NCBI GenBank assembly: GCA_026874595.1
Contig: CM049307.1
Span: 74,686,643 to 74,750,642, forward strand
Length of the DNA: 64,000 bases
Direction of reading: 5' to 3'
DNA from: Sipunculus nudus
Taxonomy: Eukaryota; Annelida; Sipuncula; Golfingiida; Sipunculidae
The position numbers were made by a program, and so were the translations under genes. Below the pieces are notes generated by a model. That model saw nothing but the letters and a program-made list of their open reading frames with translations. It was not told where the DNA came from and ran no database searches. Numbering within the stretch: position 1 is the first letter of the stretch; the number at the start of each line of letters is the position of its first letter. This document shows positions 3,129-58,386 of this stretch, in pieces.

Positions 3129-3198
3129 ACAAGTGACCCATGGGTCATGACGCTCAGCTGACTGGGAAGACATTTGCAAAAGGAAATTTTATCATCTA

Positions 3199-4237
3199 CA
3201 GTCAAGCCCACTTTGTATCATATCGGTTAATACAAAATCCCGTTTATTGTCACATAAATATGAAATCCCAAACCATTTCCTATATGAACAATGGTAAATC
3301 TGACCGTTTAATATCATTGAATATTGTAATAATCCCGTTTATTGTCATGCTTGGAACCCTTGGCAGTGATACCATTTCGCAGTTAATATCACATCAAAGG
3401 CCGACATGGCAATCAAAGAGACCAAGAGCGTGTAATCGGTCAGGCATGTCTAACGATCGCATCTCCCACCTGTGTGCGGTAGGCAAGTGCAGTGATGTAT
3501 GCAGGTCACTCCCCGTCACTTAGCTAATTAACGTCTTAAGATACCAAGGTAATTCAGATCACTGCGTTTCATCGTACGCGATGTTTGCGATCACATATCA
3601 AACATAATAAACTCCTGGCCTTTGAAAGGCCGCGGTTTACACCTCAGTGACGTTTCGCCGAGATGATATGAAGCAAGAGCTCTAAACGAGGGGATACAAG
3701 GTCCAAAACCTCAATCGTGGCGAAACTTCAGAAAGTTGACAATGACATGACGATGCCCGCTCCCTGGTCGGTCCTATCATAAAGACGATAATGGAAGTTT
3801 AAGTCATTAATAAGATATCCGGAAAATAAGGCACAATACTCGGGGAAAGAATTATCTAGTACAATAGTTTGCCTACGCATAACATTATAACTGTGCTGCA
3901 TATTTCCAGATATTTGACCTCATGACCCAGACGCTACGTCTCTTTCTGTTTGCAAGTCGGATTTTGTGTCAGTTATTACGGCATGCGGCACAAAACTTAC
4001 AGGAAATAAATTGTTAGGTGCCCAGAACCGTCATTTGATGTGCCGTTGTGCAACAGAAGTATTCGTAAACGTTTCTGTATTCTGTTTTATTGAAGATTTA
4101 TTTAATATCATTTGAGACATAACGCTTCTTCTAAGACTCGAAAGGACATCAATGTTGAAGCCCGCATAATGTCACATCCCGGTTATTATCATAATTTATG
4201 CATGCTAAACCGACATGACAATAAGCGGGCTTGACTG
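3199..4237. mobile_element. TA-flanked TIR element nested in A1 (Tc1/mariner-like, non-autonomous)
   Basis: Terminal inverted repeats start TA|CAGTCAAGCCC at the left and end GGGCTTGACTG|TA at the right. Similarity continues inward around TTATTGTCAT and TCGGTT. The TA dinucleotide on both sides fits Tc1/mariner/pogo-type target duplication. The 1039-bp interior repeats parts of the terminal sequence (around 3325-3350) and encodes no recognisable transposase. The 127-aa ORF at 3140-3523 crosses the element boundary and is not credible as a gene. Confidence 0.7.
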
Positions 4238-4347
4238 TAAATGGTAGTATATAACCACTGAACTGATTAACCAACAGGCTGAGATTGTGTCTGTATTAAT
4301 ATATCTCAAGAATAGAGAAAAAATGTGTAAACTTAAAAAAAAATACA

Positions 4348-6650
4348 GGTGGCTCCACCAGTCTGCAGAAACTAATAAAAACACTTAATGGTCAATACCC
4401 ATGCAAAGAAGCATGGTGGTCTCTGGATTAGTTGTTCAGATACTTCAGCCTTTGTATCAGATTTTCCATTATTCTGAGGGATACTTTGGAGTCCTATAGC
4501 TTGAAGGATATGGGTAACAGAGACCTAATTTCAGGTTTCCACAGACACTTTTCATGGGCCTACTTGCATGACAAGAATGAAGATTCTAGGTCCAGTTGTT
4601 ACAATTTGGACCCTGTTGACAGATAACCACATCTTTAAAGGTCTCAAAAATAGAGAAAATAATTCTTAAAAATTTGAAAAAAAATAGAGGTGGCGCACCC
4701 AGTCTGCTGAAACTGATGGAACACGTCATGATCAATATGTATGCCAAAAATCATGAGCATCAGTGTTGTAGTTATTTGTTGGAGTTTTTGTATCTAATTT
4801 TTCATTATTCTGGGGGGTACTTTGGAGCCATACAGCTTAATGGACATGGGTAACAGAGACCTTATTTCAGGTTTCCATGGAGATTTTCCATGGGTCTCCC
4901 TGTGTGTAAAGAATGAAGATTCTAGGTCCAGTTGTTATGATTTGTGCCCTATGAACAGATGTTCATATCTTTAAAGGTCTCAAAAATAGAGAAAAAAATT
5001 TAAAAAAAGCCCGAACAAATACATGTGGTGCCACCAGGCTGCAGAAACTGATGAAATACTCCATGACCAATATCCATACAAACAATTATGGTGATCTCTG
5101 CATTAGTTGTTCAGATACTTCAGCTTTTGTATCAATTTTCCATTATTCTGAGCTGCACTTTTGAGTGCCATAGCTCAAAGGATATGGGTAACAGAGACCT
5201 AATTTCAGGTTTCCATGGAGAATTTTCATGGGTCTCCCTGTGTGTCAAGAATGACGATTCTAGGTCCAGTCGTTACAATTTGAACCCTGTTGACAAAATA
5301 ACTACATCCTTAAAGGTCTCAAAAATTGAGAAAAAAATTGTAAAAATTTGAAAAATACAGGTGGTGCCACCAGTCTGCAGAAACTAATGAAACATCTCAT
5401 GATCAATATGTATGCCAAAAATCATGACCATCAGTGATGTAGTTAATGAGATATTGAAGTTTTTTTGTGAAATTTTTGACTATTCTGGGGGGTACTTTGG
5501 GGCCCCATAGCTCAAAGGATATGGGTAACAGAGACCTAATTTCTGGTTTCCATGGAGACTTTTCATAGGTCTTTCAGAAGGTCAAGAATGAAGATTCTAG
5601 GTATAGTCCTTACGATTTGTGCCCTGTTAACAGATGTTCACATTTTTAAAGGTCTCAAATATAGAGAAAACAATTCTTAAAAAAAAAAAATAGAGGTGGC
5701 GCACCCAGGCTGCAGAAACTGATGACACACTCCATGATCAATATCCATGCAAACAATTATGGTGATCTCTGCATTCGTTGTTCAGATACTTCAGCTTTTG
5801 CATCAAATTTTCCATTAATCTGAGCTGTACTTTGGGAGTGCCACAGCTCAAAGGATATGGGTAACAGAGACCTAATTTCATGTTTCCATGGAGACTTTAC
5901 ATGGATCTCCCTGTGTGTCAAGAATGAAGATTCTAGGTCAAGTCATTACAATTTGAACCCTGTTAACAGATGTCTACATTTTTAAAGGTCTCAAAAATAG
6001 AGAAAAAAATTCGTAAAAAATCGAAAAATACAGATGGCGCCACCAGTCTGCAGAAACTGATGAAACATCTCATGATTAATATGTATGCCAAAAATCATGA
6101 CCATCAGTGATGTAGTTAATGAGATATTGAAGTTTTTGTATGAAATTTTTCACTATTCTGGGGGGTGCTTTGGGGCCCCATAGCTCGAAGGATATGGGTA
6201 ACAGAGACCTAATTTCTGGTTTCCATGGAGACTTTTCATAGTTCTCTCAGAATATCAAGAATGAAGATTCTCGGTCCAGTCTTTACGATTTGTGCCCTGT
6301 TAACATATGTCCACATTTTTAAAGGTCTCAAAAATAGAGACAAAAATTCATTAAAAAATTGAAAAATACAGGTGGCGCCACCAGTCTGCAGGAACTGATG
6401 AAACATCTCATGATTAATATGTATGCCAAAAATCATGACCATCAGTGATGTAGTTAATGAGATATTGAAGTTTTTGTATGAAATTTTTTACTATTCTGGG
6501 GGGGTACTTTGGGGCCCTATAGCTCGAAGGATATGGGTAACAAAGACCTAATTCCAGGTATTCAAGGAGATTTTTCATGGACCTCTCTGGATGTAAAGTA
6601 AGAAGATTCCAGGTCCTGCAGTTACGATTTGTGCCCTGCTAACGGCCGGA
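4348..6650. repeat. tandem array, seven units of about 335-341 bp, in ABABABB order
   Basis: Units begin with a GGTGGCGCCACC-like block followed by AGTCTGCAGAAACT, at 4348, 4689, 5025, 5360, 5695, 6033 and 6371. Each contains GATATGGGTAACAGAGACC, TCCATGGAGA, and AAAGGTCTCAAAAATAGAGA. Units 1, 3 and 5 share a GGT(G)ATCTCTG...TTGTTCAGATACTTCAGC version; units 2, 4, 6 and 7 share an AATCATGA(C)CATCAGTG...GTAGTTAATGAG version. The array therefore grew as dimers of about 672 bp, with a final B duplication. Confidence 0.85.
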
Positions 6651-6733
6651 CGGCCGGACGGACAGACGGAAGGACGACGGACAAAGACCCATTGCTATAG
6701 CCCAGCATGACTGAAAGTCAGCTGAGCTAAAAA

Positions 6734-8320
6734 TGCTCTTATGTTCCCAAGAAGTGCAAAAACATCAATGGGAATTACATTTACATTTTATTTTTTCCTT
6801 TTTTTTCACTAAATCTCTTATATGGCTGATTTTCCATAACCCATCTTAGGTCAGATTAACAGTTAGAGGACACAGATTTGCAACTGATATTTATTTTTGA
6901 CCTTGACCTTATTTTTAAGGTGGTAACTGGGGGAAAACCTCCTAAGAGCACTCTTCAATTGCAGACCTCTGGTTTGTGCTATATTTGTCTCCCCTCCAAT
7001 TTATACCATGCTAACAAATGTTACTACTGAACCGAATGCATTCTTTTATTATATTATTTGCACACTGCACTGACTGTTGTATTTTGAAACACAAAACATA
7101 TTGTACAACTGTCTGATTTATACAAATAAATATTATTATTATTATTATTACTACTTGTTGAAGTGCAGACATCTTTGTGCTGAAGTCCTTGGCAGGGAGT
7201 CTGATTAAACAGCCCTAACCATTTTATCACTATAAGCTCCATTAAACAAGCTTAGACCACCAGACAACCTTCCTTCCTGTCAACTTCCTGTTCTCTTTGT
7301 TCTGCTTTGGTTATGTAACCCGCCTGACCCCACCTGGAGTACCTCTAGAAGAGAACCACACCATGAGTGCCCCAGGTCAACACAGTGTATGACAGGTCAC
7401 ATCTGACATACAGTACTCACTGTTCTAATGTTCTAATGTTACTGTGGTGTCTGGACACAGTGTCACATAACAAAAGGTCATATGGTGTATACACAGAAAG
7501 GTGACATTATGTATTTTGACACTTGTTTTGACTGGACATGTGGCTATATGAAACTGATAGATTTTCTTATACCAGTACTGACTTCACTGTCATATGTGAA
7601 AGGTTGATTTTTCATGATTCCCCCACCCCCTTTTTTCCATGCTTCTTTTCATTTTGTGATATAACCACCCAAGAACTATAATCAGAGTATAATGGTATTT
7701 GAATTATATTATGGACAGGTCAAAGGACAATTTTTATACCGATGGTGTAAGCCTAAAGTATTATGTGTTTCCCTTGGTTTGTTGGTTGGTTTGTCTGTCA
7801 CCAACTTTACCCAAAAAGTAATCAGCAGATTTTGGTTTCTCAGCAGAGGAAGGTTAACTTAGGGTAACACCCAATGAACAACGTATTTAACTTGGATGAT
7901 TATCATGTTTTTTTTATAAAAACTTTCCGTCTTTCGTGATGGCTAATCATTTGTCCCAGATTCAAGCTGCCCATAGATAGGAATTAGTGTCAGTGCTTGC
8001 TCTGCCACTACTTAGATAACCTGTGTTACTGAAGTTTGGCACTGTCCGCCCATGAATGTTTGATTCAGGCAGAGGTTTCTTACGCTCCAAAACAAACAAT
8101 TGCTTGCGGTTTCATTTTTTTAATATGCATGCAAATTTTATAAAAACTGAGGAGGGTACAAGAGAACACTGAAATAGCAGAAATTCTTTCTCATTATTGA
8201 CAGATAATATAAAAGATCTTTCATTACAGATAATATTAATGCTTTGCCTTTTGATGCCACATGCTCGGACAAATTCAATGAGATATCAATGAAGCTACGG
8301 CAGGAACAACTGTTTGCTGG
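6734..8320. other. spacer; short ATT microsatellite near 7129-7152
   Basis: No gene recognised. It includes an ATT run around 7129-7152. Two short pyrimidine-rich tracts (about 7618-7640 and 7905) are ordinary simple sequence. Confidence 0.45.
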
Positions 8321-8457
8321 GAAATCTTATATTGGATTTGGCACATGATCCAGAGTCAGGAATGTTATCATGGAAAACTGAAATATATATACATGTTCAG
8401 TCACATATCATAAAAATGAACCTGGGAATATGGACCAATTAAGTGAATGCAAACATG
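8321..8457. repeat. dispersed repeat, copy 2 (partner at 619-752)
   Basis: Same family and orientation as 619-752, sharing GGCACATGA, CAGGAA and AACCTGGGAATATGGACC. It lies just left of a 17-base C run (8481-8497) and the TA-flanked element starting at 8568. Confidence 0.6.
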
Positions 8458-8480
8458 GGTTTGGCATCCCACATTAGCCT

Positions 8481-8497
8481 CCCCCCCCCCCCCCCCT
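8481..8497. repeat. poly-C tract (17 C)
   Basis: An uninterrupted run of 17 C, one of several C or G homopolymers in the window (others near 32189-32208, 43339, 44995 and 48400). Length is likely to be error-prone in an assembly. Confidence 0.9.
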
Positions 8498-8567
8498 ACA
8501 TGGCGAAGGCTTGTATTCAACAGAAAGGAGATTTTAAGTTGTCGTGATAACTTCCCATTCATGTATA

Positions 8568-10471
8568 CCGTATTTATTCGTGTACAGGACGACAAATTTT
8601 ATCCTAAAAATATTTGGCAAAGAAGGGGGGCCGTCTCATACAAGGGTACAAGTTTTTCAGCATCCTCAGGGCCGCCAAGGATAATTTACGGCAATCAGTA
8701 TTAATACGTCGGTCGAACTGGACGGCGTGATCATGTCCGCATGGTGGTAATGTTCACTCAAAAAAGAACACTACAGTGCTTTGTTTTCGTTTATATTTAT
8801 CATTTATACACAGATTTACATGCGCACATAGTTAAATAATTGATAAGAAAAGGTTTGCCCTTGTCGCATTGACACAGGAATTTCAACGGAATCAATATAT
8901 GAGAGCCCTTCTGACAGTAGAGCCAGTAATTTCCCGCGATCACGGACGGAATCGCGGAAATGACAGACCGAAACGGAATTCCCAATCCTGAAAATATATG
9001 TTTTAAAGTATATTTTGCCAAAAATATCTTGTCAATTCACTTTTAAACAGGTACACAGTGATATAATTGTCGATGCCGCTATCAGTGTGCGGGGCTTACC
9101 CATGTACTCAAGATCCGAGAGTACAGCGCTCGCACAAGGGATGCTGGGAACCTGCTTATGCCATCCAGTAGCAAGTAAAATGCATATTAATACAAGGATG
9201 ATTTTTTCATATGGTGCCGTATTTACCGCGTAAAATGTTCACGAGTCCAGTGAATGCGGACGCTGTCAGCTGGCTTGCACATTGACATACACGGAGGCTC
9301 GCACATGCCACTTCGATTACAAGACAACCAGTAGCTCTTTATAATCATAAATATGAAGCACCCTTACCTCAGGTGACACGAAATTCAATGTTTGTCAAGC
9401 TTGTTTTATTGGACTACTTCAAGAAATGAATGTATTATAACGGGTTAACAAAGTTCAAGAAAGGAACCGAGTTTCCGCGGGTTATAAATATGACAAATTT
9501 CCTCACAATCTTATAATGAAACCCAGAATCTGGTGCATATATCCTCTTGGGAAATGATCTGTTAAATAGTGACTGAATGGAAACCCTGATTTCTACAAGG
9601 TAGCATTGAACTTGCACAGTTAAATGTCGTAAAATAATGTAGTTCACGAAAGTCCTACTGGGTCATTACCTAATCACGTTTTTCCTTCCTGACTGGTACA
9701 ACAGAATAAATTCTAACCTGGCCGACGTCGTTTACGCAAACGTGATATATTTTGTGGGAAAATTATGGTAACTGTGACATGGTTGTGGACAGGCCAGGAA
9801 AATGTAATTTTCGATAGTTTAAGGTTAACACGGAATAATAAATGAGGAAGCTTAGTTTAGTAGAGCATTTTTGAAGCCTTGGTTTTGTGCGCTGTCACTT
9901 GTCTACCTTAAGCCACTTGTGGATGTGGACACTGATATGCAGTTGGTGTTTGTGGTGATCTCCTTCAAAATATGCAGAAGACTGACATTTCTTTGAAATA
10001 AAATTATCTTTTTCAAAGAGGAAGGTGTCAATGCCCTGTAATGCACACTCTCTTGACATGTTAATTCTTAGCGGGTGCCATCTCATTGATAATAATTTAT
10101 TACCCAAATTTTGGCCCTAAAATTGACCCTTAGAAGTGTCTTATAATATTAATTTGAATTGTTGCATAATCCTCATTCTTTGATATGTTTAATTAATTCC
10201 GTTTTGGTCTGCTCCATACCTTTCTATATTACTTTCCTGTATTTACTTGTAGCATCATAAAAAAAATATACCACTGACCATTTTAAGAATAAAAAATTAT
10301 AAAATCCCATTTCAATCATCAGTGTTAAAGTGATCATTATGCTAATAAAGTTATACTCAGTAGCTGGCAGCTCCAACTTAAGATGCTGAAAAATAATTTG
10401 AATCAAAATTTGAGGTTCAAAATTGGGGGTCGTCTTATACACGGGGTCGTCTTATACACGCATAAATACGG
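8568..10471. mobile_element. TA-flanked TIR element of 1.9 kb (Tc1/mariner-like relic)
   Basis: The left end reads TA|CCGTATTTATTCGTGTA and the right end is its near inverse, TACACGCATAAATACGG|TA. Inverted similarity continues to a GACGAC block, and the right end carries that block twice (10428-10454). TA flanks both ends, as for Tc1/mariner/pogo-type insertions. The 1904-bp interior has only short ORFs and no recognisable DDE transposase, so it is either non-autonomous or heavily decayed. Confidence 0.7.
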
Positions 10472-11568
10472 TACCAAAAATTTAAAATATCTGCAGGCAT
10501 TAAGTTCACCACAGTATTTAATACAACTGCTTCATGGTGTTAACATGATTAGTTTAACATTAACAGAAATTAGTAAATCCCTGTTAAAACATTGCAGTCC
10601 CATTCATCTGACTTGTCTCTTACTACTTCAAGGTGCGGAAGGAACCATAACTTAAGCCTATGAGTATTAGGAACCCCTGGACCATGTGTTACATCCATCT
10701 AAATGTGAGGTAACAAGTTAACCACACACGCTGGATCTGTAAAAGTATGCTTAATGTCATTCAAACTCACACAATCTGTAATGTCTTCAAAACCGCAGAG
10801 GGAAATGTCAAGCCTGATAAAAAGACTGCACAGATGAACTCCGAAAACATTAAGTCTCAGGCACCTAACTACTATATGGTTAAAGGGATTCTTTTGAAAT
10901 TATAATTGCATTATGTTGGGAACTAAAGATGTTAACTGGTTTCTCAGCCAGTTGATCAGGTGATCTCTTGAAGTATCAAAGAGATCTGAGTATCTCACTC
11001 CAAACAGAGCATGAACATCATCAGTGAGATTAAACTTTCTCACTCACACCAAGTCATGATCACCTTCAAAGAAATTAATGTCTCAAGATTTCACCATTTT
11101 TCCTTTGGGGCTGTGGCAGGGTTTGATCTGGCGACCTTCCATTGTTTAATGTGGCACTTTAACCACTACTCTAATCTGCCCCACCCAAATTAAAATCAAA
11201 CTAGGATCAATTCTGAATTGAATTGGAACTGAATTGGAATTGAAGGTAAAATTGTATGACTTGAAATTGTATTGGAAAAATAATCTTCATGAAATTTATT
11301 GGATTTGTATTGGAAATGAAGTCAACAGGTTCAGATGAATTGAACTGAACTGATGAATTGGGGAGTTAGGAACTGCTCACGGGAAGTGTTTATTTTTGGA
11401 ATTTTGAATAGTTCACAGTCCAGTATGGTGTAACAAATAAAAAGACAGACTAAGTGAAATAATAGCTGTAGCTGTATTTTTATGTGATTTTGAAATAATT
11501 TCTCATGCAGATTTCAATTTTCATCAATTATCTCGGACTGAATCTTGTGTAACTGAACAGTTACAAAT
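10472..11568. other. spacer with one SINE-like segment
   Basis: Apart from the tRNA-like segment at 11100-11190 nothing is recognised. The 11195-11345 part is low-complexity sequence rich in GAATTG/GAATTGAA-type words. Confidence 0.45.
11100..11190 (-). repeat. tRNA-derived SINE head
   Basis: Read on the minus strand it has GTAGTGGTTAAAGTGCCAC, resembling a pol III A box, then GGTCGCCAGATCAAACCC, resembling a B box, at tRNA-like spacing and followed by CCACAGCCCCAAAGG. The boxes are degenerate and no cloverleaf closes, so this is a SINE and not a tRNA gene. Confidence 0.55.
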
Positions 11569-13994
11569 ACAAGTGACCCATAGGTCATGACGCTCAGCTG
11601 CCAAGCATGACCTGTGACATCATGGACTGAGATTCACATCTTCCAGTCAAATTTTGAAGAACCAATTTGCCAATTTGTTGAAAATTTTCTATGACAACAG
11701 AAATATATATCACCTATGTCTGGTTAAAACACAGTGAATTGATGGTCTGAGGAAAATGCATAATTGTTAAGCTATCAGGAACTATTCCAACAGCTTGCTT
11801 GAAACCTGTCAGTCTCAAAAGGAACACCACAAGGGCAAATATCAGATCAAAATATATAGCAAAAATCAAGGAAATACATGTTAGAATTATTGAGAAACAG
11901 GTGCTTCTGTATGAATTTTTATTCAATACAAGCCAACTGTACTGCACTTTTATAAATGATGGTAATATTTATTCAGAAATATTTGACCCAATCCTTTACA
12001 AGATTACATAAATATACATCCAACTGCATTCACTTTAACTGTTCTTGAGATAATATGATCAAAAGGAATTGCCTGGTGGCCATATTGGACTTCTGACAAG
12101 TCTGAAATCAGACAACAAACATTCTCTAAATCGGACCAAACATTAAAGAAAAATTACTGAAACTGCCCTGAAGAAAGAATTTCTAAGGTGGCTAACTGGC
12201 AGACATAATGGATTTCTGACAAGTATGACATTTGATATCCCACATTCTCCAATAAGAGACCAAACTTGGGGCAAATTATCCAGTAATAAATGCCCAAAAT
12301 AATTCAAAAGGCATGTCCAGGCCCTCATATCAGATTTATAGATATGCAATTGTAAAAAGTGCAAGTCCAATATTTTTTATTATCACTCTGGTTTTCAATG
12401 GGGTCAGCATGGTAGGTAAACTGCCAAACCTGAAAGAAAAAGAAATGCAGAAAGCATGACTAAGAGTCTTGAAATAAAACAAAAAGCCATCCTAAATCAA
12501 GGTACACATCCACATATTATGAGAACAAACACTTGCTTTTATATGTGGTGATATATATTAAAATATTCAGATATCTAGGAAACTAAGTTTATTGCTAGGA
12601 TTCCATAAAATAAACTGCAAAATGTTCCCATCATCTTATAAATCAGTAGCTAAACCTTAATACTATACTCTCATAGTCTTAATGCCTGGCTGAAGCATTC
12701 TGACAACAGTGTTTTTGTTATGAAGTAACGAGGTACTTATCACTGAGCCTTATCACTTAATAGGCTGATACAAAAGGGAGTCATATGTCACCAGTGTCAC
12801 TCATAATTACAGCCACACAGGGAGATGTACCAGCTGGAGTGGGATGGTTATATATACAAGAAAAATAGAGATGGTCTATAAAATAAGTAATTGTGAACAT
12901 CCCTGACCTATGACCTTGGCCTTTTGCCCATATATCAACTGGATTCTTTCTAAATGATGGGTAACTACTGACCACTTAAATCTGGTGTAATTACTTGGCA
13001 ACCAATGGGTGAATAACTTTGACCTGCAACCTTTAACCTGCTGACCAGCTGACCCCAAAATCAATAAGTTATTTATTCAAGCAAAAAGACCCATAAATAT
13101 GAAGTTTGAGTCAAACTGAGTGATGCATAGATGTGGCATATGTGAAAGCCTGAAGGTTTAGGTTGAACAGTTACACTTGAAATATGCTCACAAGCATTTA
13201 GAACAATTAAAAATTTGACCTTGACCTTTGACTTTTTGACCTCAACATCAAAAGGCGTCTTCCCTTATTGGTAGGTAAGCCATATATGACAGATGGAAGG
13301 TACAGATTGAAAAGTTTGCCTGAAAATGACTCCACGCAAGAAGTGGGTGCTGTGAACTTGACCTTTGACCTCAAAATCAACAGGTCTTTTCCCCTGTTGG
13401 CAGAGAAGCGATATCAGTGCTGGAAGGTTTGAAATGAAAAGTCTTGCTTAAAATGTGTCCACTACCTTTTCAAAGAAGTGGATCCTGTGACCCTGACCTT
13501 TGACCTTGTGACCTCAAAATCTATAGGATTCTTCTCCAACTTAGTAGGTGAGCTATATGTGAAAGATCAAAGAATTGGGATGAAAGGGTTGGCTTAAAAT
13601 GCATCCACAGGCTTTTCAAAGAAGAGGCTCCTGTGACCTTGACCTTTGACCTTTTGACCTAAAAAAAATTATGGTTCTTCCCCTGTTGGTAGGTGAGCTG
13701 TATGTGAAAGATGGAAGGTTTGGGATGAAAATTTTGTCTCAAAGAGTTATTTCTGGGGGGTGCAAACACACCCCATAACTTCGAGAATATAGGTCGCAGT
13801 GACCTAATTTCAGGTTTGCAAGGAGATCTTTTTATAACCTCTAAGACTGCATAGGGTTCATGGCCCTAGCCCCTACGGTTACGATGTGTGCCCTGCTAAC
13901 GGACGGACGGCCGGCCAGACTGACAGACGGAAGGACGCCGGACAAAGACCCATCGCTATAGCCCAGCATGACTGAAAGTCAGCTGAGCTAAAAA
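11569..13994 (-). mobile_element. Family A element, copy A2
   Basis: The left end ACAAGTGACCCATAGGTCATG then ACGCTCAGCTG matches A1, with one change breaking the palindrome. The right end has GGACGGACGGCCGG, a GACAAAGACCCATCGCTATA block, and the AGTCAGCTGAGCTAAAA hairpin end, nearly identical to A1. The interior is unrelated to A1's roughly 338-bp array except near the right end, and includes TGACCT-rich repeats. No transposition protein is seen. Confidence 0.7.
12880..13700. repeat. TGACCT-rich tandem repeats (DR1-like) inside A2
   Basis: Units of about 140-150 bp each carry a cluster of TGACCT half-sites. The exact 13-mer TGACCTTTGACCT occurs at 13359-13371, 13494-13506 and 13640-13652, with degenerate versions at about 12900, 13020 and 13215. 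Its reverse complement AGGTCAAAGGTCA is the standard direct-repeat-1 nuclear receptor element. Function is not shown. Confidence 0.8.
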
Positions 13995-14546
13995 TCCTGT
14001 ACTCTGATGTTGTGCCCTTTTTTTAATTGTGAACTGAATTGAATTGAATGAACAAATTGGATTTTTTTTTTCAAACAATTGAAAAATTTGAACTGACCCC
14101 AGGTCTGATTCCTATGTTCAACAGTAACTGCTGGTGTGACCTTGTAACTCTTTTCAAGTGAACAAGCTGTGTGGTTTTTGTACTCATTTACAGTGGGCTA
14201 AGAGCTGAAGTCACCTGTTACTCAGACCTGCTGTCTCATTTCCAATTTCCTCCAATTCCCCTTTCTAGTCCACTTTCCACCCACACCCAAAGAACTCCTA
14301 ATTTCCACCTGGTCTGTAATTAACAAAATACTCCCACATACCAGGCATATTTTTTGGTGTACCTTGGCCTTTGTAATACCAGGTTCCTATGAAAATGGTA
14401 TACTGTGGTTGCCTTTTTTTTATTTGCGAGGGTTTTGTTTTTGTGATATTCCCTAATGTGTAATAAACCTGAATATGAATCCCTTGGGAATAAGATGTCC
14501 CATCAACTAAGATGAACAAAATGGCATGATGCTTCTGCACAAACAA

Positions 14547-16001
14547 ACTAGACATTTCTTGGCACCGCAGGTGCCAGAGTATCCCCAGACATAGTAGGCC
14601 CCCCCCCTTTAAGAACAGACCCCCATTTTTAGCAGCATATACTGACACTTGGCATATTTATTGTTTCTTCCATCTAACAATCCACAATCTTATTGAAGAT
14701 GTTGGTCCTGTGACCTTGATCTTTTTAAAGATGTCCTGTGACCTTGCCCTTTGACCTCATGACCCCAAAATCACTTTGGGTCTTGCTTTTCAAATGGGAC
14801 ATATGCAAGTCAAGTTTGAAATCTATACATCAATAAAGCAGGAATTATCATCCAGAAACTAATTTTTTTTTGACAGGTGGCTCCTGTGACCTTCACCTTT
14901 GACCTTGTGACCTCAAAATTGATAGTGTTCTTCCTCTCTTGGCAGGAGAACTATATGTGCAAGATGAAAGATCTGAGATGAAATGTTTGGCTGAAAATGC
15001 ATCCACATCTTTTTAAAAATGTGTCCTGTGACCTTGACCTTTGACCTCATGACCCCAAAATCAATTTTGGTCTTGCTTTTCCCATGGGACATATACAAGT
15101 CAAGTTTGAAAACCATACATCAATAAAAACAGGAATTATCATCCAGAAACTAATTTTTGGACAGATGGCTCCTGTGACCTTCACCTTTGACCTTGTGACC
15201 TCAAAATTGATAGGGGTTTTCCACTATTGGCAAGTGAGCTATATATTCAAGATGGAAGACCTGGGATGAAAGTTTGGCTTAAAATGCATCCACAGTATCT
15301 ATTAAGATGCCAGTCCAGTGACCTTGACCTTTGACCTCATGACCCTAGAACCTACAGGGTTCTTACTTTAGTGGTGGGCCACACATAAGTCATGTTTGAA
15401 ATCCATATGGCTGTCAACACTGGAGATATCATAAGAGGTGTGTGATTTTCACCATATATGGCAATATTCAAGGTCAAGGCCACTATCATAGGAAAGGTCA
15501 TGACCCCAATTTAAATAAACATCATCTTATAACCCATACCTATGTATATGCATAATATAAAAGAAATCTGTCCATTAGTTTTTGACTTATAATGCTCACA
15601 GTACTGTAAGGTGGCAATTTTGGGGGTATTAAACGGCATGAAAACAAGTAAAGAATAATAGGTGGCGCCACCAGTTTTGGGAACATGACAACCCTATACA
15701 TGATCTTCCATCAAGTTGATTTTGGGATAAATCCATCCAAGATTTCTTGAGATATTAAAGAATTTGTGTGATTTTCCCCAAAATTGGACCTATTCAAGGT
15801 CAAGGACACTCTCCTAGTAAAGGTCATGACCTCATTTTAAATAGGCGTCGTCCTCTTACCCATATCTATACATATACCAAGTTTGGTAAAGTTCCGTGAA
15901 ATATTTTTTGGGTTATCGCGCCAACACAATTTATATGCGGCGGCGGCGGCGGCGGGACCGGTATGAAAACATAGTATCCCCCGACTTTGTCTGGGGATAC
16001 A
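14547..16001 (-). mobile_element. Family E element, copy E1 (Helitron/Helentron-like, non-autonomous)
   Basis: On the minus strand the 5' end reads TGTATCCCCAGACA, forming a small hairpin with GGGGGATAC, followed by ATGTTTTC and a (CCG)n run (15939-15956 on plus). The 3' end reads TGTCTGGGGATAC, then the hairpin GGCACC-TGC-GGTGCC, then AAGAAATGT and CTAG followed by T. The 5' end and the sequence before the 3' hairpin are inverse over 12 bases. There is no evident target duplication. The interior is TGACCT-rich tandem repeats plus one GGTGGCGCCACC at 15661. No protein is encoded. Confidence 0.7.
14700..15450. repeat. TGACCT-rich tandem repeats inside E1
   Basis: Units of about 145 bp carry GTGACCTTGACCTTTGACCT-like clusters alternately followed by CATGACCCC or TGTGACCTC. 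Exact TGACCTTTGACCT occurs at 15035-15047 and 15325-15337; one-mismatch forms are at about 14889 and 15179. The same unit type occurs in A2 and at 16800-17240. Confidence 0.8.
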
Positions 16002-16540: not shown

Positions 16541-16760
16541 GTGGAGCCTGGTGGCATAATGGGTAGTGCCCTGGGTCGACCGCAAGGTTGTGGATTCCCA
16601 TCCCTATATGACAGCCTTGCACGCCACATCTCTTAGCCAAAGTCTTTACCACAAGGGTGCGCCCTCTCCACCAAAGAGTAAATGGGTACCTGTTAGCATT
16701 GGCGGCAGGCTAAATGTAGAACAACTAGGGACCCATGGGTCTCTTTGCTTGGCTGAATTT
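16541..16760 (+). repeat. tRNA-derived SINE
   Basis: It begins GAGCCTGGTGGCATAATGGG (A-box-like TGGCATAATGG), followed about 30 bases later by a degraded B box (AAGGTTGTGGATTCCC). A body with GAGTAAATGGGTACCTGTTA, of a type common in invertebrate SINEs, follows. The B box has lost the invariant GTTCGA core, so it is not an active tRNA gene. Confidence 0.6.
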
Positions 16761-16799
16761 GTCTATAAGGATATGTTCATGAGCTTTTCAAAATATGGG

Positions 16800-17250
16800 T
16801 CCTGTAAAGTTTGAAGCCGACCTGTGTAACCCGAACAAGATTTATTATCTGGAAACTAATATGTGGACAGACGACCCTGTGACCATGACCTCTGACCTTG
16901 TGACCCCAAAGGCCACAAGTTTTTTCCGCAATTGGCAAGTTAGCAATTTCTGGAATATGGAAGGTTTGGAATGAAAAGTTTGGCTTAAAATACGTCCACA
17001 AACTTTTTTTAAGAACAAGGGTCCTGTGACCTTGACCTTTGACCTCATGACCCCAAAATCAAAAGTGTTCTTACATTATTGGTGGGTCCTACATAAGTCA
17101 AGATTGAAACCAATATGTCAATCTAAACTGGAGTTATCGTCGGGAAACAAATATGTGGACAGATGGTCCCCTTTGACCTTGACCTTTGACCTTGTGAACC
17201 CAAAATCAATCAGGTTCTTTCCTTTTTGGCAGGTTAGCTATATGTGCTGT
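16800..17250. repeat. TGACCT-rich tandem repeat fragment
   Basis: Three units like those in E1. Exact TGACCTTTGACCT occurs at 17033-17045 and 17180-17192, with a one-mismatch form at about 16887. No element termini were found here, so this is probably a broken copy. Confidence 0.75.
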
Positions 17251-17283
17251 GTGGTACTTGGCTGTAGCTCCAAGGTTAGCTGA

Positions 17284-22654: not shown

Positions 22655-22662
22655 CTTGCTAA

Positions 22663-23065: not shown

Positions 23066-23073
23066 CTTGCTAA

Positions 23074-24065: not shown

Positions 24066-24132
<67 letters not shown>

Positions 24133-25498: not shown

Positions 25499-25676
25499 CT
25501 TTTGCTTTCAAAGGCCCGGAACCAGGAACTCCATTGGGTTTTCTCCAACCTCTCCAATTATTACAAAGACTCTCTGGTTCACTGATCCAAGAACACAGGG
25601 AATCTTCTTCAAATCTGTCGCTGTCTTCGAAGGATAACCGATCCGCGTCAGCCTCCCAATCAAACATAAAATCCAT
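25499..25676 (-). CDS. ZSWIM8: ZSWIM8-like, N-terminal coding exon (59 codons plus 1 nt)
   Basis: ZSWIM8 (EBAX-1 in worm, Dora in fly) is the substrate receptor of a cullin-RING ubiquitin ligase that degrades Argonaute in target-directed microRNA decay. The exon encodes residues 1-59. The core FEDSDRFEEDSLCS at 16-29 and the NWRGWRK block at 40-46 match the N terminus of animal ZSWIM8 proteins as I know them. The start MDFMF aligns with vertebrate MELMF, so ATG 25676 is preferred over the upstream in-frame ATG at 25703; its context (AGAATGG) is good. It ends AAAAG|GTAAGACC, a good donor. The SWIM zinc finger and all later parts lie on exons I could not find within the 25 kb to the left. A single exon leaves a small chance of a gene fragment. 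Confidence 0.85.
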
Positions 25677-27954: not shown

Positions 27955-27956
27955 GC

Positions 27957-37599
<9,643 letters not shown>

Positions 37600-37627
37600 A
37601 TTTCTGTTATATTCATCTGTATGGCTG

Positions 37628-37633
37628 AATAAA
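37628..37633 (+). terminator. RPS14 polyadenylation signal AATAAA
   Basis: The canonical hexamer lies 29 bases after the stop codon, within GGCTGAATAAAAATGCC. This gives a very short 3' UTR, as usual for ribosomal protein genes. Confidence 0.9.
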
Positions 37634-40396: not shown

Positions 40397-41445
40397 ACTA
40401 GATATTTCTTGGCACCGCAGGTGCCATGGTATCCCCAGACAATCCCCCTTCCCCCCTTTAAGAATAGGCCCCCCATCTTCAGCTGCATTTACTGACACTT
40501 TGGAAGCGACTATGGTTTCTTCTATCTATCAACTTGAGAAACAATATTTTTCACAAAATATGTGGGCCAATACTGTGAATCACTCTTGAGAAAGAGCATT
40601 ATTTTAGGAAAAGGGAAAGTAGATGGCGCCACCTGTCTGGTTTATGAGAAAATTTTTCCAAGATGGATAGACATGCCAAATTAAAGAACTATACTTTGAA
40701 TTACTCCAGAGATATGAGCAAATTTCACCTAAAGCACATGTACAGATGGATGCCACGCCAAAACAATTGCAGATGGTGCCACCAGTCTTGAGTACAAGAT
40801 TGGGGAGTCCAAGATCTATAGTAAAAAGCACAATTTCAGGCCAAAAGGGCAATTAACACCTCAGAAAAGAGCATTAATTTATTTGACAAAAACAGGAAGG
40901 TAGGTGGCACCACCTGTCTGGTTACAAAAAAAAAAACTTTCCAAGGTGGATGGACATGCCAAATTTCAGACTAATACCTTGCACCACTCTGGAGATATGA
41001 CCAATTTCCACTGAAAGCAAACATGGAATGGACGCCACACACTTGGGATTACAGATAGTGCCACCAGTCTTGAATACAAGGTATCCAAGATCATTAGACA
41101 TGTACAATTTCAGCCCAATCTGTTTATTAGTTTTAGACTTATAATACTCAGTACTGTCAAGTGGCAATGATGTGTAATTAAAAGGCCTGAAAACAAGAAA
41201 AGGACAGAAGGTGGCACCACACTATCCAAGATCTTTGGTCAAGTTTTATTTTTGGATCAATCCATGCAAGATTTATTAAGATATTTAAGAATTTGTGTGT
41301 TTTTCCCAAAAAATGGACCTATTCAAGGTCAAGGTCACTCTCCCAATAAAGCCCATTTTAAAAAGGCTTCGTCCCCTCATCTATATCTATGCACATCAAG
41401 TTTGGTAAAGAAACTCAGCAAAAATGTTCACTAAAGCTGCTGCAT
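40397..41445 (-). mobile_element. Family E element, copy E2, 5'-truncated
   Basis: On the minus strand the 3' end is GTCTGGGGATACC, the hairpin GGCACC-TGC-GGTGCC, AAGAAATAT, then CTAG and TTT, matching E1 nearly base for base. The interior at 41160-41430 matches E1 at 15600-15890 (GGACCTATTCAAGGTCAAGG is shared), and GGTGGCACCACC-type blocks recur. The TGTATCC 5' end is absent; the match fades about 70 bases before A4. Confidence 0.7.
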
Positions 41446-41511
41446 GCAGGGTGAAAATCATGTTAGTCCCACGATAAATGTCTGTAAATTGTTGTGATGT
41501 TTCAGCACTGG

Positions 41512-44500
41512 TTTTTTAGCTCAGCTGACTATAAGTCATCTGAGCTATAGTCGTGGTCCATTGTCCGTCGTCCGTCTGTCTGTCCGTCCGTAGATGTGGC
41601 ACGTTTCGAAACCGTAAGACCTAGGAATCCAAAATTTGGCATAATGTTAGATGTCCCCAAGATCTCCTACCAAGCAGAAAACTGGGTCTTTGCGACTTCG
41701 TTCCTTTGAGAAATTAAGGAAAAACCTCAATTTTTTATTAAAAACCTATTTTTACACTTCACGACTGCCTAATATCAAAACCACTTATTTGATTGTCCTT
41801 ATATGTACCATAAATAATCCTCTATATAGTTCCTATGTACATGTCAGAAATAAGGTCTGTATTATATAATTTAAAAAAGTTATGGGCCCAAACATAATGC
41901 ATTTTGTAAATAAACAGGAAAGAAATTTGATCACTTAACACAAAACTTGTTAAAGATAAGCACTTTTTTTCCAGTAATATAACTTTTATTATTCAAAATT
42001 AAATTGTATACCCAAAATTAGAACAAAATCTTTTAAATTTTTAAAAATATTAGCAAAAATAAATAATTGGTACTGGTACCTTAAATTTTGCCCAACTTTG
42101 ACCATGACACGTTTTTTTTCCTGTAACTGCTGTTGATTTCATTTTCAAAGCATGTTTTTGTTAGCATTTCAACTGTTAACATCAAAAATTTGAAACCAGT
42201 TGATCAAAAACTGTAGATTTTATTCAAGTTTCCAAGCACTACGTCACATATTGTTTACATCAAGCTAGTGTTATGCAGTTTGCTAGAGCTCAGCTCCCCA
42301 GCTTCAGCTCTTAGTTCCTTAAATTTGGCATACAGTTAGATGTCTCCGAAATTCCCTACAATGCCAAGAATTTGGTCACTAGGACTTAATTCCTTCAAGA
42401 TATTAATGAAAACTTCATTTTTCCCTTAAAAACCCATTGTCACACTTCAGGACTGCCTAATATTAAAACCACTGATCTGACTTTGATCATATATAATTTA
42501 CATATTTTTTCTATACATTCGCTATGCACATGCCAGAAATGATGTCAGTATTGTGTAATTGTTTTAAGTTATGGGCCCAAACATAATGGACTTTGAAAAA
42601 AATCAGGAAAAATATTTACTCGTGTTACATGAAAATTATTGAAAATAGAGAGTTTTTTTCAAGTATATAACTTTGTTTAATCAAGATTCAATTGTATACC
42701 AAAAATTAGATCTGTATTTTGTAAATTTATAAGTTATTAGCATAAACATAAAATCAGTACCTTTAATTTTACCCAACTTTGACCAAGGCATGTTTTTTTC
42801 CTGTGGGTACTGTTGATTTAATTTTCACAGCATGTTAACATAAGTATTTTATTTGTTTAAATCTGAAATTTGAAAATAAAAGGTTGAAAATTAGGCTAGT
42901 TATTGAATTTTGTCTTGAGGTTCTGTTGTAGTCACTTGCTTTGTTCCAGATGCAGGTAGGCCACTCCGGGTCACTAGAAGTCAGCTATGCCAGGGTTTCT
43001 GATCTGTTACAGTCACTGGGGGAGATCCCCTGATGTGACAGGTGTACAATTGTTCTCATATCACACCCTCTCCCCCCCAATGAATATATAAATATACATT
43101 TGTATACATGATGTGGTGTTATATGACAAGATTGAGATTTATGATGATGCAATTTAGAATTATGAATCAACATTTATATTCAGAAATATGTTATATTGGA
43201 AATGTATACAAATTGAACTTAAAATAAAAAAATGAGGATCTAATAGAAACATGTGTTCATTATTTTCGAGCCTCAGCAGAATTGGAGATCAGGCTTTGTT
43301 TGCCCTGAATGTATATGCAAAAGTGTTGTTAATCCCACCCCCCCCCCCCCCACCCCCCCACCCCGGATGTTATTGATCCTTTTCACCTCACTGTCACCTT
43401 TGCACTGGGACATTAGTTATTATTGTAAATATGTACAATTTTTTTAATTTGAAAAATAATTGGATTAGAAAAAATTAAGATTTAATTTAAACATATTGCC
43501 TCAGGAGAATGGAACAAAAGTGATCAGCTCTGTCTGTCCATATCTCTCGATTATCATTAAATATATATATTAATTATGAAATTTTTCCTTTAAGCACTGT
43601 TGAAGTAACTTTTATATGCTGTATGTGTATGGATTTAAGCTATTAAAGTCTGAAATTTGAAAGCAACTTATGTATTCAGATGTGTAATATTGCAGATGAA
43701 AAACTTTAAAATATTAAAATATATTATCAGCTTTGTTTGTCTAACAGTCTGTCTGTCCTTTTTTAAATATTATGTAATTGTGAATGTACTATTTAATCCT
43801 GTAAGTATTGTTGAATTAAGTAGAAATCCTATATGTATATACTCTATATTAATACAGAGATGTTGTAACGCCCATCATTCCAGCCCTCCCCCCCCCCACC
43901 CCCACCACCAAGTCCTTGCATCTCGGGACTGGGGACATCAGTTATATTTCAACTGTATACATTTTATAAAATAAAAAATACATATATTTAATAATATATA
44001 TTATGTAAAATAGATCCAATTGAGCAAATGTATAACTACTGAACTGTCAACAATTTGTCAAAAAGCAAGCCAGTGATCATGGTAATAATATACATCTTAT
44101 GTTCACAAACTGCTCACATGCTTCAATTTTGACATTAGAGAATGCATGGTTTGGTCACAAAATATTATTTGCCACAATTTCCTCTTAGACTTGATCTCCA
44201 TTTGATATTAGTTTTTATTTTTACCTTCAAAGTCAACTTCAGCTGAGCACAGTGACCCATAATTATAGCACAATGTCTTGAATGTTTACATCAAGTCATT
44301 GGTTAACAGTGTTCTAGGCTGTTACATAACACCTTCACTCCTTGCCTACTGCTTCTGTGAGTGTCTGGGTCAGGCTGGGTCAGGCAGTAATTACCAGAGA
44401 GCCTTTCTCCTCTCTCTCTTTCCCTTTCCCTCTTTCTCTGGCAGTGTAGCTCTCTTTCTCTCTCTCTTTCTCTCTCTCACCCCTGTGCCTCCCTTCCTCC

Positions 44501-45935
44501 CTCCACCCCATTCTGTCGACAGGTACTATAAACCTGATTTATTAGATATATATGTTGATGCAATTAAGAAATGTGAATCAACTGAAATATTCACATATAT
44601 ATGTTATACTCTAAATGCATAGTTACATTTTTGAACCTGGAAAAAAAATTATTTTATAAAAAAAGGAATTTATGTAAAACTTGTTCATAATTTCCTGGCT
44701 CAGAAGAATGGGAATTAAAATGATTTGCTTTGTTTCTCTAGCTTTCTGCCTGTTTTAAATATTTAATAATATTGAATAAACTTTTTTTCCCTGTAAGCAC
44801 TGATTAATTAAATTTCATATCCTGTACCTATATGCAAGGGTATTGTAACTCCCACCATCCCCTTCCCCCACCCCACTAAGTCCTTGCTCCTTGGCACTGT
44901 GAACAATAGTTCTATTGCTATAGCATAAAATTTAATAATTTGAAGAAAATATATACAGAGAGACAGAGGTATTGTAACTCCCATCACAACCCACCCCCCC
45001 CCCCCCCCATCAAGTCCTTCCGCTGGTGGAGTGGGGACTTTATAGCAACTGTATACATATCATAAAATAGAAAAAAAAGTTTATTAAAATAATTGGATCT
45101 CATTAGACAAATGTGTTGGTCAGATCTTAAAATATTATTTGCAACAATTTCTTCCATAATATCAACCAACCATGGCCTAGATTACCTCTTTCTCTCAGAC
45201 TTTATCTACATTTCATAATATTTTAGATTTTAACCTTCCAGGTGTTTAAGTACTGTTGAATGCTCCATCCCTCTCTCTCTATCTCCTTTTTTCTCTACAT
45301 CCAACCCTCCTTGCTGCCCACACTGTTTCCTTCTCCGAACCCCATCCCAATGTCAGCCTCAGTAAACGAGAACAAGATGAATCAGATATATTCATATTTT
45401 TATATATTGTATAACTATTTGTTACCTATGTACATGCCAGAAATTATGTCAATATTGTGTAATATGCAGACATGGTGGGCATATATATAATGTACCTTGT
45501 CAAGACCTAAGAGATATCATGTCATACAGTCACAATTCATAAATCCCCTCTTCAGCATAGTTAATCCTAACATTATATCTGTCAAATTAATCTTGCGGAC
45601 TTCCATACACTATAGATCCTTCAACAAATAGCCTTATCATCATTCTACCACTGCTTGGTGTACTGTCATTGCATTCATATTTGCTCAAATATATCCCTAT
45701 TTTCAACAGCTTCCAAATAAATAAAAAATAAACCACTATATTTACTCCATATTAATCCACCAGTCAGGTTATTTCATACATCATTTACTCACATATTACA
45801 TTATATTCCTTTATAATAGCCTAACATGTCCAAAATATTCATAAGGTTTGTCGACAAAATATAGTATCACAATGGTGATACATTTATAGTCCAATCATGA
45901 TCAGCTGAGCGCCGTGACCCATGGGTCCCTTGTTT
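41512..45935 (+). mobile_element. Family A element, copy A4
   Basis: The left end TTTTTTAGCTCAGCTGACT has the hairpin partner AGTCATCTGAGCTATAG and a CCGTCTGTCTGTCCGTCC tract. The right end is GATCAGCTGAGCGCCGTGAC, then the rest of the GACCCATGGGTC palindrome and CCTTGTTTTA. The left 370 bases and right 600 match A3. The interior has several diverged modules with C-rich tracts followed by AAGTCCTTG (about 43340, 43885, 44855, 44990). A second, worn 3' end (CAGCTGAGCACAGTGACCCA) at 44240 suggests a composite of two copies. No protein is encoded. Confidence 0.72.
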
Positions 45936-46273
45936 TAGATATTTGGCAACAGATTTGCACTGTATGCAAACATGTGAAATAGTTATATCAACAAACTGTA
46001 AAGTAAAACTGAATATGTAAATTCCTAAATTTATGAAAATTTGTAATAGGTTTAATTTATACAGCTGAGAAAACATCAATTTTGAAAACAATTTAATTTA
46101 TAATCAGTTAGTTCCCCTTGCTATGCAAGACATCATTGCTGCCCCTGATGTGCAACCCAGTGTCCACATTTTCTCACTTATTTGTGGAAAAGTGAAAAAG
46201 ACACCGAGTTGTTTAACACAGTTGGTGCCACCTGCAGGTGATAATCATATATCTGTTATGTGATAAATATGTA
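45936..46273. other. short spacer between A4 and A5
   Basis: It contains TTGGTGCCACCTGCAGGTGA at about 46222, followed by ATAATCATAT and a GATAAATAT block, similar to 40149-40215. No gene. Confidence 0.5.
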
Positions 46274-48363
46274 ACAAGGGACCCATGGGTCACGGCGCTC
46301 AGCTGAATGTGACAGATGTAATTGTATCAACATTGTTGTATTTAGGTCTGTAAGATTTCATTTTGACAGATGTAATTTTTTGTATTTATTATGTAGTTGA
46401 GCAGAATAGTAATATCGAAGTATCAGTTTTTCAAATATGTACAAGAATGTGTGTCTAAAATATTTCATTGGGAATGACCAGATGTTGTAATTTGCAGAGG
46501 AAGGAAGTGGAGATTTGCAAGTTTAAAATACACATTTAATAAATAAATAAATTATGGAAAAGTAGAAAACTGATATGTTTTGGGAAGCAGTTGTTGCTGA
46601 TGGGAGAGGAAACAGAATGTCTCAAAAACTATCTATTGATAAGAAATGGTACATTAAGCTAAAATAAGTTGCCATATTTGATCTGAATTGAAGAATAGGG
46701 GATTGTTGCCAATAATATCTTGTGATCTGACCATGTGTTCTCTAATGTTGAAACTGAAGCATTTAAACAGTTAGCAAAGACAAAATCTGATATTTCCATG
46801 GTCATTGGTTGGTTCTCTGACTGTCAATATTGAAATCGCCCATGATCACTATAGGCAGGTAGAAGTCAACTTGAGGGACTAAAACTTGGAGTTCAGAGAA
46901 GAAGTTACTGATGGGACATGCGGGTGACCTATAGAGGAAAACAATCCGAGTCTGACTGTGAATATAGAGAAGAGATGACTCAAAATCTGGTGTTGTGTGG
47001 TGGTGAAGGGTTACATGGGGACTCAGTTGTTCATGTATATAAATGGCTAAACTATGAGGTGGTCTTTTGTTGTTGTTCCTCTGAAAGCTATTTGACCATT
47101 TCTGATAAGTTTGTAATGAGGACAGAGAGATAAAAAAACAAAGCAAATCACTTTAATTCCCATTCTACTGAGGCAGAAAAATAATGAACGAATGTTTGCA
47201 TTATATCATTCTTTTAATACATCAATTTTTTGTTAAGGGAAATTTTGCACAAATTTTATAAATTTTACTATACATTTACAGTATGTATCAGTTATATTTG
47301 AAACTTTAAGATGATTAACAATTCTAAAATAGATCAACATTTATAGTTAATCTGCTCAGGCAACATCACATTATATACACAGATGTATTTATTTTTTCTT
47401 AAAATATATTTTTGAAATTTGCAAAATAATTAACATCTGAAAATAACACTTGATTCAGGAAAAGTTGTGTACATTTGATCCGAAACAACAATGCAATTAA
47501 AGAATGTAAATAATGCAACATATCTGGTTGGGCAGGAGGGGGGGGGTCAGGGTTGCCATGTGATTCTACATTTGTGACAGCCGTGTTGCATCACTAAAAA
47601 GTTAACCAAGGCAAGGGACCAGACATGGCTGGTCTGGAAGTTCAAAATGGAAATACATTAGAGCCTCAGAAAAACTTCAATAACTAGAACAATTTTAAAG
47701 CTTTTTCTTTCAAATTTCAGAATTTTACAGATTAAATATATATATACTAACTGTGAAAAGTATTCAAAGTTCAAATGTTTTTACAAGAAAGAAACATGCC
47801 ATGGTCAAACTTGGGCAAAATTTAAGGTACCAAATTTATATTTTTTGCTAATATTTAAAAAATTTAACAGATTTTGATCTAATTTTTGGTATACAATTTA
47901 ATTTTGATTAACTAAAGTTGTATTACTGAAAAAAAAGTCCCTAGGTTTAACATTTTTTGTCTTGAGAGACCATTGTGTTTGGGCCCATAACTTTTTTAAA
48001 TTATATAAAACAGACTTAATTTCTGGCATGTACATAGGAACTATATAGAGGAATATTTATGGTAAATATGAAGAAAACCAGATGAGTGGTATTGATATTA
48101 GGCAGCCCTGAAGTGTGAAAATAGATTTCTAATAAAAAATTGAGGTTTTTCCTTAATATCTCGAAGGAACGAAGTCCTATTGACCCAATTTTTGGCATAG
48201 TAGGAGATTTTAGGGACCTCTAACTGTATGCCGAATTTCAGATTTGTAGGTCCAATGGTGTTGGAACGTGCCAGTCTAATGGACGGACATCCGGGCGGAC
48301 GGACGGAAGACAGACAATAAACCACGATTATAGCTCAGATGACTTATAGTCAGCTGAGCTTAA
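46274..48363 (-). mobile_element. Family A element, copy A5, carrying an endonuclease relic
   Basis: The left end is AACAAGGGACCCATGGGTCA then CGGCGCTCAGCTGA. The right end is a GGACGGACGGAAGACAGAC tract, then CCACGATTATAGCTCAGATG, and the AGTCAGCTGAGCTTAAAA end. The right 600 bases match the left parts of A3 and A4 inverted. On the element's sense strand (minus) lies a decayed EEP-type endonuclease (46680-47146). It is the only copy with recognisable protein. Confidence 0.75.
46680..47146 (-). pseudogene. endonuclease/exonuclease/phosphatase (EEP/APE-like) domain relic
   Basis: A 114-aa minus-strand ORF (46802-47146) ends in IVIMGDFNID, the characteristic GDFN motif of the EEP fold, preceded at the expected distance by IVFLYRSP, the usual V-x-Y-R-x-P strand. 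It stops six codons after the GDFN block. In another frame about 60-100 bases on, ENTWSDHKILLATIP gives the (S)DH motif that closes the EEP domain, so a frameshift and a deletion have removed the linking part. EEP domains occur in non-LTR retrotransposons and in Helentron-type rolling-circle elements. Its place between family A ends favours the second. The N-terminal catalytic Asn/Glu parts are not visible. Confidence 0.7.

Positions 48364-58312: not shown

Positions 58313-58386
<74 letters not shown>

Follow-up and report, generated by a model that had tools for sequence, protein, structure and literature searches.

Helentron-like elements of Sipunculus nudus run with transcription in nearly every copy inside four mapped genes

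Results

Genes and repeated elements of the window

We analysed a 64,000-nucleotide stretch of the Sipunculus nudus genome (C2:74,686,643-74,750,642; hereafter the window). The assembly comprises 1.43 Gb in 153 contigs, 17 of them chromosome-size. The window contains ZSWIM8, RPS14 and POLR2I (RPB9) coding sequence together with repeated elements of the Helentron-associated HINE type (Table 1). The next coding match of ZSWIM8 was found at C2:74,660,751-74,660,909 (-); the exon positions therefore place a 51-kb intron over the first 25.5 kb of the window. A reading of the sequence alone (the sequence-only reading) had noted five copies of one element family, family A, with shared ends. End-pattern searches and inspection of the sequence confirmed all five at their places; B1, B3 and the segment at 53979-57957 are additional to them. 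All eight HINE-related segments detected inside the window genes were in the sense orientation: four in ZSWIM8, A3 and B2 in RPS14, and two in POLR2I.

Table 1. Genes and HINE-related segments of the window (window positions).
Feature	Position	Strand	Remarks
A1, HINE family A	3129-6728	-	ZSWIM8 intron 1, sense
A2, HINE family A, TGACCT-type repeats	11569-13989	-	ZSWIM8 intron 1, sense
B1, family B (subterminal inverted repeat TATCCCCAGAC, hairpin, CCG microsatellite, palindrome GGCACCTGCGGTGCC, end CTAG)	14548-15999	-	ZSWIM8 intron 1, sense
HINE-derived fragment, degenerate family-A right end (GACCCATGGGTC 16730-16741), TGACCT repeats	16727-17248	-	ZSWIM8 intron 1, sense
ZSWIM8 first coding exon	25536-25676	-	gene start 25,676
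RPS14 gene	27957-37563	+	coding matches 27957-28118, 33982-34146, 36581-36658, 37531-37563 (last short, E 0.026)
A3, HINE family A	29088-33913	+	RPS14 intron, sense
B2, family B	29463-31038	+	nested in A3, same orientation
A4, HINE family A	41518-45933	+	4 kb 3' of RPS14 coding end, RPS14's strand
A5, HINE family A	46274-48360	-	0.8 kb 3' of POLR2I coding end, POLR2I's strand
POLR2I (RPB9) gene	49127-62689	-	coding matches 62657-62689 (11 residues, E 0.006), 53390-53443, 50874-50957, 50097-50234, 49127-49189
B3, degenerate family B	51158-51988	-	POLR2I intron, sense
Third-kind HINE-like segment(s), left end near 57946 (TTTT-AGCGAACC..., GTCC tract)	~53979-57957	-	POLR2I intron 1, sense

The strand of a segment was taken from the share of its aligned bases against positions 90-290 kb of contig 1 (C1), where the elements are nearly all on the minus strand; 11 window segments matched. 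From 3.1 to 17.2 kb, five segments were on the minus strand (99.5-100% of aligned bases). The matches at 29.1-33.9 kb and 40.4-45.9 kb were on the plus strand (96% and 90%), and three segments from 46.3 to 58.0 kb were again on the minus strand (94.6-100%). The strand switches twice, once between the divergent genes ZSWIM8 and RPS14 and once between the convergent genes RPS14 and POLR2I. An 80-bp piece at 60619-60699 was also on the minus strand, in agreement with POLR2I. A4 and A5, which lie outside the genes, have the strand of the gene that each lies behind.

Ends and interiors of the element families

The left end of family A consists of a T-run followed by AGCTCAGCTGACT, a short loop, AGTCATCTGAGCTATAG and a GTCC tract, with TAGCTCAGCTGACT as the hairpin motif. 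It is predicted to form a strong DNA hairpin (z -5.1 against shuffles). Subterminal inverted repeats (subTIRs), GCTCAGCTGA at the left and TCAGCTGAGC at the right, were found in A1-A5 with a single change at the right end of A2, and a GTCC-type tract is present in all five. The palindrome GACCCATGGGTC, located between the 3' subTIR and the 3' end, is exact in A1, A3, A4 and A5 and has one mismatch in A2; it is symmetric, but its hairpin fold did not exceed that of shuffles (z +0.8). The right end reads TCAGCTGAGCGCCGTGACCCATGGGTCCCTTGT. Of 15 elements, 14 have T as the next base and A2 has A; the 15 had been recovered with a pattern that contains this T, at up to nine mismatches. In A1, the right end occupies 3129-3161, and the GGAC tract and hairpin fall within ~6640-6728. 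A sixth, partial family-A right end lies at ~16727-16741. In the window, the left-end 14-mer gave 14 matches at up to three mismatches (3.7 expected) and GACCCATGGGTC gave six at up to two mismatches (1.3 expected); no shuffle reached either count.

A3, A4 and A5 have long stretches in common. A1 and A2, whose interiors differ, match each other over 115 bp on the left and 32 bp on the right; between A1 and A3-A5 the matches span 76-93 bp and 34-44 bp. A1 contains a 336-bp array of 6.8 copies. Family B has other sequences on the same plan, with a subTIR of the TATCCCCAGAC or TATCCGCC-type, a CCG microsatellite, a palindrome and a CTAG end. B2 carries a separate hairpin, CCG microsatellite and 3' palindrome and holds a 280-bp array; this array was rejected as A3's own interior because it belongs to the nested B2. 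Within the third-kind segment, two 22-bp and two 32-bp tandem arrays (54503-55298) lie in opposed orientation and form a large inverted repeat.

Genome-wide, the exact left 14-mer occurred 40,580 times (20,134 on the plus and 20,446 on the minus strand), and the same pattern reversed, used as the control here and below, occurred once. Two 46-base left forms were found 8,352 and 1,424 times, the exact 34-base right end 2,792 times and an exact 22-base piece of the family-B left end 3,859 times, all with a control of 0. The unrelated comparison 14-mer TAAATGGGTACCTG occurred 18 times against 24 for its control; it was dropped as a short interspersed element (SINE) control because it is not a repeat, and the tRNA-like match at window position 16554 was for this reason not used as a control element. 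Of 18 stretches sampled from contigs (2 kb taken at 150 kb from each of 16 chromosome contigs, plus the first bases of C1 and of C20), two, on C2 and C3, matched the A1-A5 library, in both cases through the array nested in A3.

The listed places of the genome-wide end patterns are all on C1, and the counts of pairing and strand agreement that follow are among the matches listed. The co-occurrence of the two ends in convergent orientation, proposed as a check on the family, was borne out: with one left pattern, 22 of 22 left/right pairs less than 8 kb apart were on the same strand. With two left patterns, 43 such pairs were obtained, of which 32 had the same strand and the right order, 10 had the same strand in the wrong order, which we attribute to dense neighbourhoods, and one had opposite strands. 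In 14 of the 32 correctly paired cases the ends were 3.05-3.23 kb apart, which points to a dominant length class, perhaps young. Composite elements were observed at C1:159.7/159.9k, 191.0/191.2k and 223.5/223.8k. Each carries two left ends of like orientation, spaced by ~230-260 bp, and the inner left end of all three lies at an identical CCTCAA-T-run site. A histone H3 5' fragment was found at C1:92,206-92,370 (+). Its 55 codons are 96% identical to H3.3 and end after ...REIRRY, with GC-rich DNA upstream and, directly 3', CCCTTGTTT, which is similar to the family-A right end. This neighbourhood may represent a gene capture.

Insertion sites and classification

To characterise the insertion site, 15 two-ended elements were excised in silico and their flanks joined. 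Within the sequenced stretches compared, an intact paralogous site was available in four cases and was lacking in the other 11. No target duplication was seen in any of the four comparisons. At two sites (R97949 and R221909) the element lies in a T|T step with one or a few additional T; at the remaining two, the copies differ in the bases that adjoin the T-run, which blurs the T|T step. A DDE cut-and-paste transposon was thus rejected, there being no target-site duplication at four of four intact sites, and so was a canonical Helitron (5' TC, 3' CTRR, A/T insertion), since the elements have the ends AGCTC...CTTGT in a T-run. Insertion into a T-run without duplication is the Helentron pattern. 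Together with the subTIRs, the 3' palindrome and the internal arrays, it supports the earlier assignment to non-autonomous Helentron-type elements, and on these sequence features families A and B are classified as Helentrons of the rolling-circle type, probably non-autonomous (HINE). The same features, with a string of T at the boundary, define HINE/Helentron elements in PMC4067079. The further suggestion of a distinct, undescribed terminus class did not hold, because a hairpin paired with a GTCC/GGAC tract has already been published for oyster HINEs: in several Cg_HINE, a subTIR and complementary inverted repeat precede a GTCC/GTCY-type microsatellite (PMC7492417).

Of 195 candidates in the genome, 150 were scored and gave at least 143 Helitron_like_N matches, several of which, such as that at C11:50,385,293, lie in open frames of 2,200-2,426 codons. 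Because of these matches and their long open frames, putative Helitron machinery is considered to exist in this genome. Many of the listed matches cluster at C1:63.9-71.8 Mb, C3:38-47 Mb, C7:46-50 Mb, C8:22-39 Mb and C14:41-42 Mb, perhaps pericentromeric regions.

Orientation in the RAF gene

A fourth gene, encoding a RAF kinase, lies on the minus strand of C1, with its exons ordered from 383.0 kb (cysteine-rich domain) through 210.8, 200.3, 182.2, 167.3, 151.0 and 145.0 kb to 126.2 kb (C terminus). Of the 35 exact left ends within the span set by the outermost coding exons found, 34 were sense. Six pairs of left ends are less than 400 bp apart (composite or nested), which leaves ~29 independent sites. 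Positions of the exact 14-mer were used only below C1:0.949 Mb, where they are consistent with the 90-290 kb sequence and with the 46-base-form matches; minus-strand matches of the 46-base left form at C1:1.2-2.2 Mb are not in the exact 14-mer list. Of the 28 exact left ends in C1:90-290 kb, 27 were on the minus strand, and homology to A1-A5 amounted to 63.3 kb on the minus and 1.9 kb on the plus strand.

Left ends 96-97% identical to another copy (at least 250 bp; best match in the sequenced stretches compared) were sense in 10 of 11 cases, and those at 76-86% identity in five of five. T-runs of at least four bases in the part of RAF analysed were nearly equal on the two strands (1,730 on the plus vs 1,998 on the minus), far from 34:1. 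Repeats other than Helentrons are scarce in this region; a fragment of a long interspersed element (LINE) lies antisense in RAF (RVT_1, E 2e-4, below the curated cut-off). A gag-like open reading frame at C1:214,392, also antisense to RAF, was recognised by eye, and Pfam gave no match.

The surrounding region, C1:64 kb-1.15 Mb, is dense in family A at ~3x the genome mean, with nearly all copies in one orientation. Between 96 and 949 kb there are 75 exact left ends, 73 of them on the minus strand, and the RAF coding exons account for only 126-383 kb.

Strand agreement between neighbours on contig 1

For strand agreement, ends less than 8 kb from a kept end were merged, and the first 1.2 Mb of C1 was excluded where stated. 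Beyond 1.2 Mb, family-A neighbours matched in strand for 67 of 84 pairs at 8-50 kb, 81 of 130 at 50-150 kb, 240 of 435 at 150-500 kb and 760 of 1679 at 0.5-2 Mb. The agreement thus decays over tens to hundreds of kb and is at chance by 0.5 Mb. Between families A and B, 41 of 56 pairs agreed at 8-50 kb and 52 of 109 at 50-150 kb. Below 8 kb, a range affected by nesting, nine of 13 agreed. When the strands of the 95 family-B ends were rotated, none of the 94 distinct rotations reached 41 (p about 0.01). Family B alone gave small numbers (eight of 12 at 8-50 kb). These results indicated a local strand cue of gene scale common to the two families. Repeat pairs at least 8 kb apart were on the same and opposite strands in 1,684 and 188 cases for family A, 244 and one for mixed pairs, and 108 and none for 'non-A' pairs, a class that contains further HINE families and cannot serve as a non-HINE control.

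Discussion

Nearly every copy inside four mapped genes runs 5'-to-3' with transcription. Rolling-circle transposition transfers one strand of the element. A one-strand transfer model is also given in PMC5371812. A sense copy implies that the transferred strand went into the non-template strand. We regard it as about an even call that transcription exposes the non-template strand and that the transferred element strand joins T|T there. In such a process, families A and B would be moved in trans by a RepHel-type protein, which would join a single element strand, from the 5' hairpin end to the 3' palindrome end, into T|T of a single-stranded target. In the germ line, that target would be the displaced non-template strand of transcribed genes, in a transcription bubble or R-loop, and element orientation would then record the direction of transcription. 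Single-stranded non-template DNA and the precedent of the bacterial IS200/IS605 elements, in which a single-strand target at the replication fork fixes orientation (PMC5371812), lead us to favour co-transcriptional entry; this reading is carried by the agreement among family-A neighbours, by the four genes and by the switches in the window. The wider proposal, that Helentrons here integrate co-transcriptionally, that their copies, in the tens of thousands, are a fossil record of the direction of transcription and that intron growth is polarised, is put forward tentatively, as a little short of an even call.

The main rival is selection: insertion would occur in both orientations, and antisense copies, harming transcription or splicing, would be lost. 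We consider this possible, although on balance improbable. Bivalves have large populations, so weak selection could suffice, and poly(A) hexamers are somewhat commoner antisense (63 vs 48). In a simple pattern count, however, 3' splice-site-like signals were commoner in the sense orientation (38 vs 16), which puts the simplest harm on the wrong side for selection; the signals in the elements lend it little support. An intronic orientation bias is known for L1 and long terminal repeat (LTR) elements (PMC10030826), yet the LINE fragment in RAF is antisense. Copies of at least 96% identity are already sense in all but one case, and families A and B agree in strand without common ends, which also speaks against selection.

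A dependence on replication, in which the transferred strand enters one strand at the fork and orientation follows fork direction, has the IS200/IS605 precedent (PMC5371812), and the almost uniform orientation of C1:64 kb-1.15 Mb would suit it. We nevertheless judge it quite unlikely. Within the 64 kb of the window the strand changes at two places, one flanked by divergent and the other by convergent genes, and agreement is gone by 0.5 Mb for A-A and by 50 kb for A-B pairs; on these two grounds, replication domains of Mb scale were rejected as the main cause. Local duplication or nesting, with copies duplicated together or inserted into each other in a fixed direction, appears more improbable still. 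Of the 28 5' flanks in C1:90-290 kb, half (14) resemble a second flank, reflecting nesting or composite copies, and the nested B2 has the strand of A3; but the remaining 14 flanks match none, and three 2.6-kb copies among the longest dispersed matches break off at the left end or no more than a few bases from it. At 8-50 kb, agreement extends to families whose ends differ, and the strands in the window track three genes that are read in two directions. The flank, dispersed-match and A-B evidence led us to reject segmental duplication as the main cause.

Several observations weigh against co-transcriptional entry. Gene strand is known for four genes only, and these data do not separate insertion bias from selection. 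RAF contains an intact antisense copy at 216,690 (+) and, at 263,907 (+), an antisense left end with one mismatch; given the matching half of the flanks, the sites of this region are not all independent. Beyond 1.2 Mb the agreement is ~73-80% and not 97%. Beyond 6 Mb it is 27 of 37 for A-A and 30 of 42 for A-B, with a single left pattern giving only 10 of 20 at 20-100 kb. Right ends beyond 4 Mb gave 11 of 18 at 20-100 kb and 28 of 44 at 100-300 kb, and orientation at C1:2.225-2.245 Mb is mixed. Only one of six kinase introns was informative (sense, 74% identity). The splice-donor pattern CAGGTAAGT, tried as a strand marker, was discarded as being without power (15,332 vs 12,946 for the reversed control). 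In rice, a strong orientation bias was absent from every intronic transposable element (TE) family (PMC7145194), which shows that such a bias is no general rule.

The orientation rule is a new point, absent from the first interpretation, whereas the element type itself was already known. We found no report in the open-access literature of Helentron orientation following host transcription, an absence that is no proof. The relation is not treated in the passages at hand of PMC5371812 and of PMC13286980 (wheat Helitron), and those of PMC10030826 name no Helitron. PMC9099904 refers to work from 2005 on the orientation bias of TEs in Drosophila, which may bear on DINE-1. As to how eukaryotic rolling-circle elements choose and enter their targets, a strong transcription-linked strand rule points to single-stranded target DNA produced by transcription. 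Co-transcriptional entry, if true, would be a eukaryotic counterpart of bacterial replication-coupled single-strand transposition. If selection is responsible instead, a non-coding DNA element shows an unusually strong intronic orientation bias. Under both explanations, the strand of the elements could help to predict gene strand and boundaries in such genomes.

Family A resembles the Cg_HINE of Crassostrea gigas, whose plan comprises a 5' subTIR, a complementary inverted repeat, a microsatellite (GTCY, GTCC or GTCK in several), satellite-like arrays, a 3' subTIR and a palindrome, with TT suggested as the target without duplication (PMC7492417). Family A has the subTIR with inverted repeat, the GTCC/GTCY microsatellite, arrays, the 3' subTIR with palindrome and a T-rich/TT target; the subTIR sequences appear to differ. 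Cg_HINE integrate in both orientations, and the passages of that paper at hand give no test against gene direction (PMC7492417). HINE/DINE-1 and the Helentrons of mite, mosquito and Drosophila likewise have subTIRs, a palindrome near the 3' end, TT insertion and a boundary string of T, and as with the families here, their non-autonomous copies outnumber the autonomous ones (PMC4067079). An autonomous partner has been identified for them, whereas none is linked to the family-A ends here; the passages at hand of PMC4067079 hold nothing on orientation relative to transcription. In their use of orientation, families A and B would work like the 'peel and paste' elements of IS200/IS605 (IS608), in which orientation marks the exposed single strand; those elements are bacterial, belong to a family distinct from Helentrons and depend on the replication fork instead of transcription (PMC5371812).

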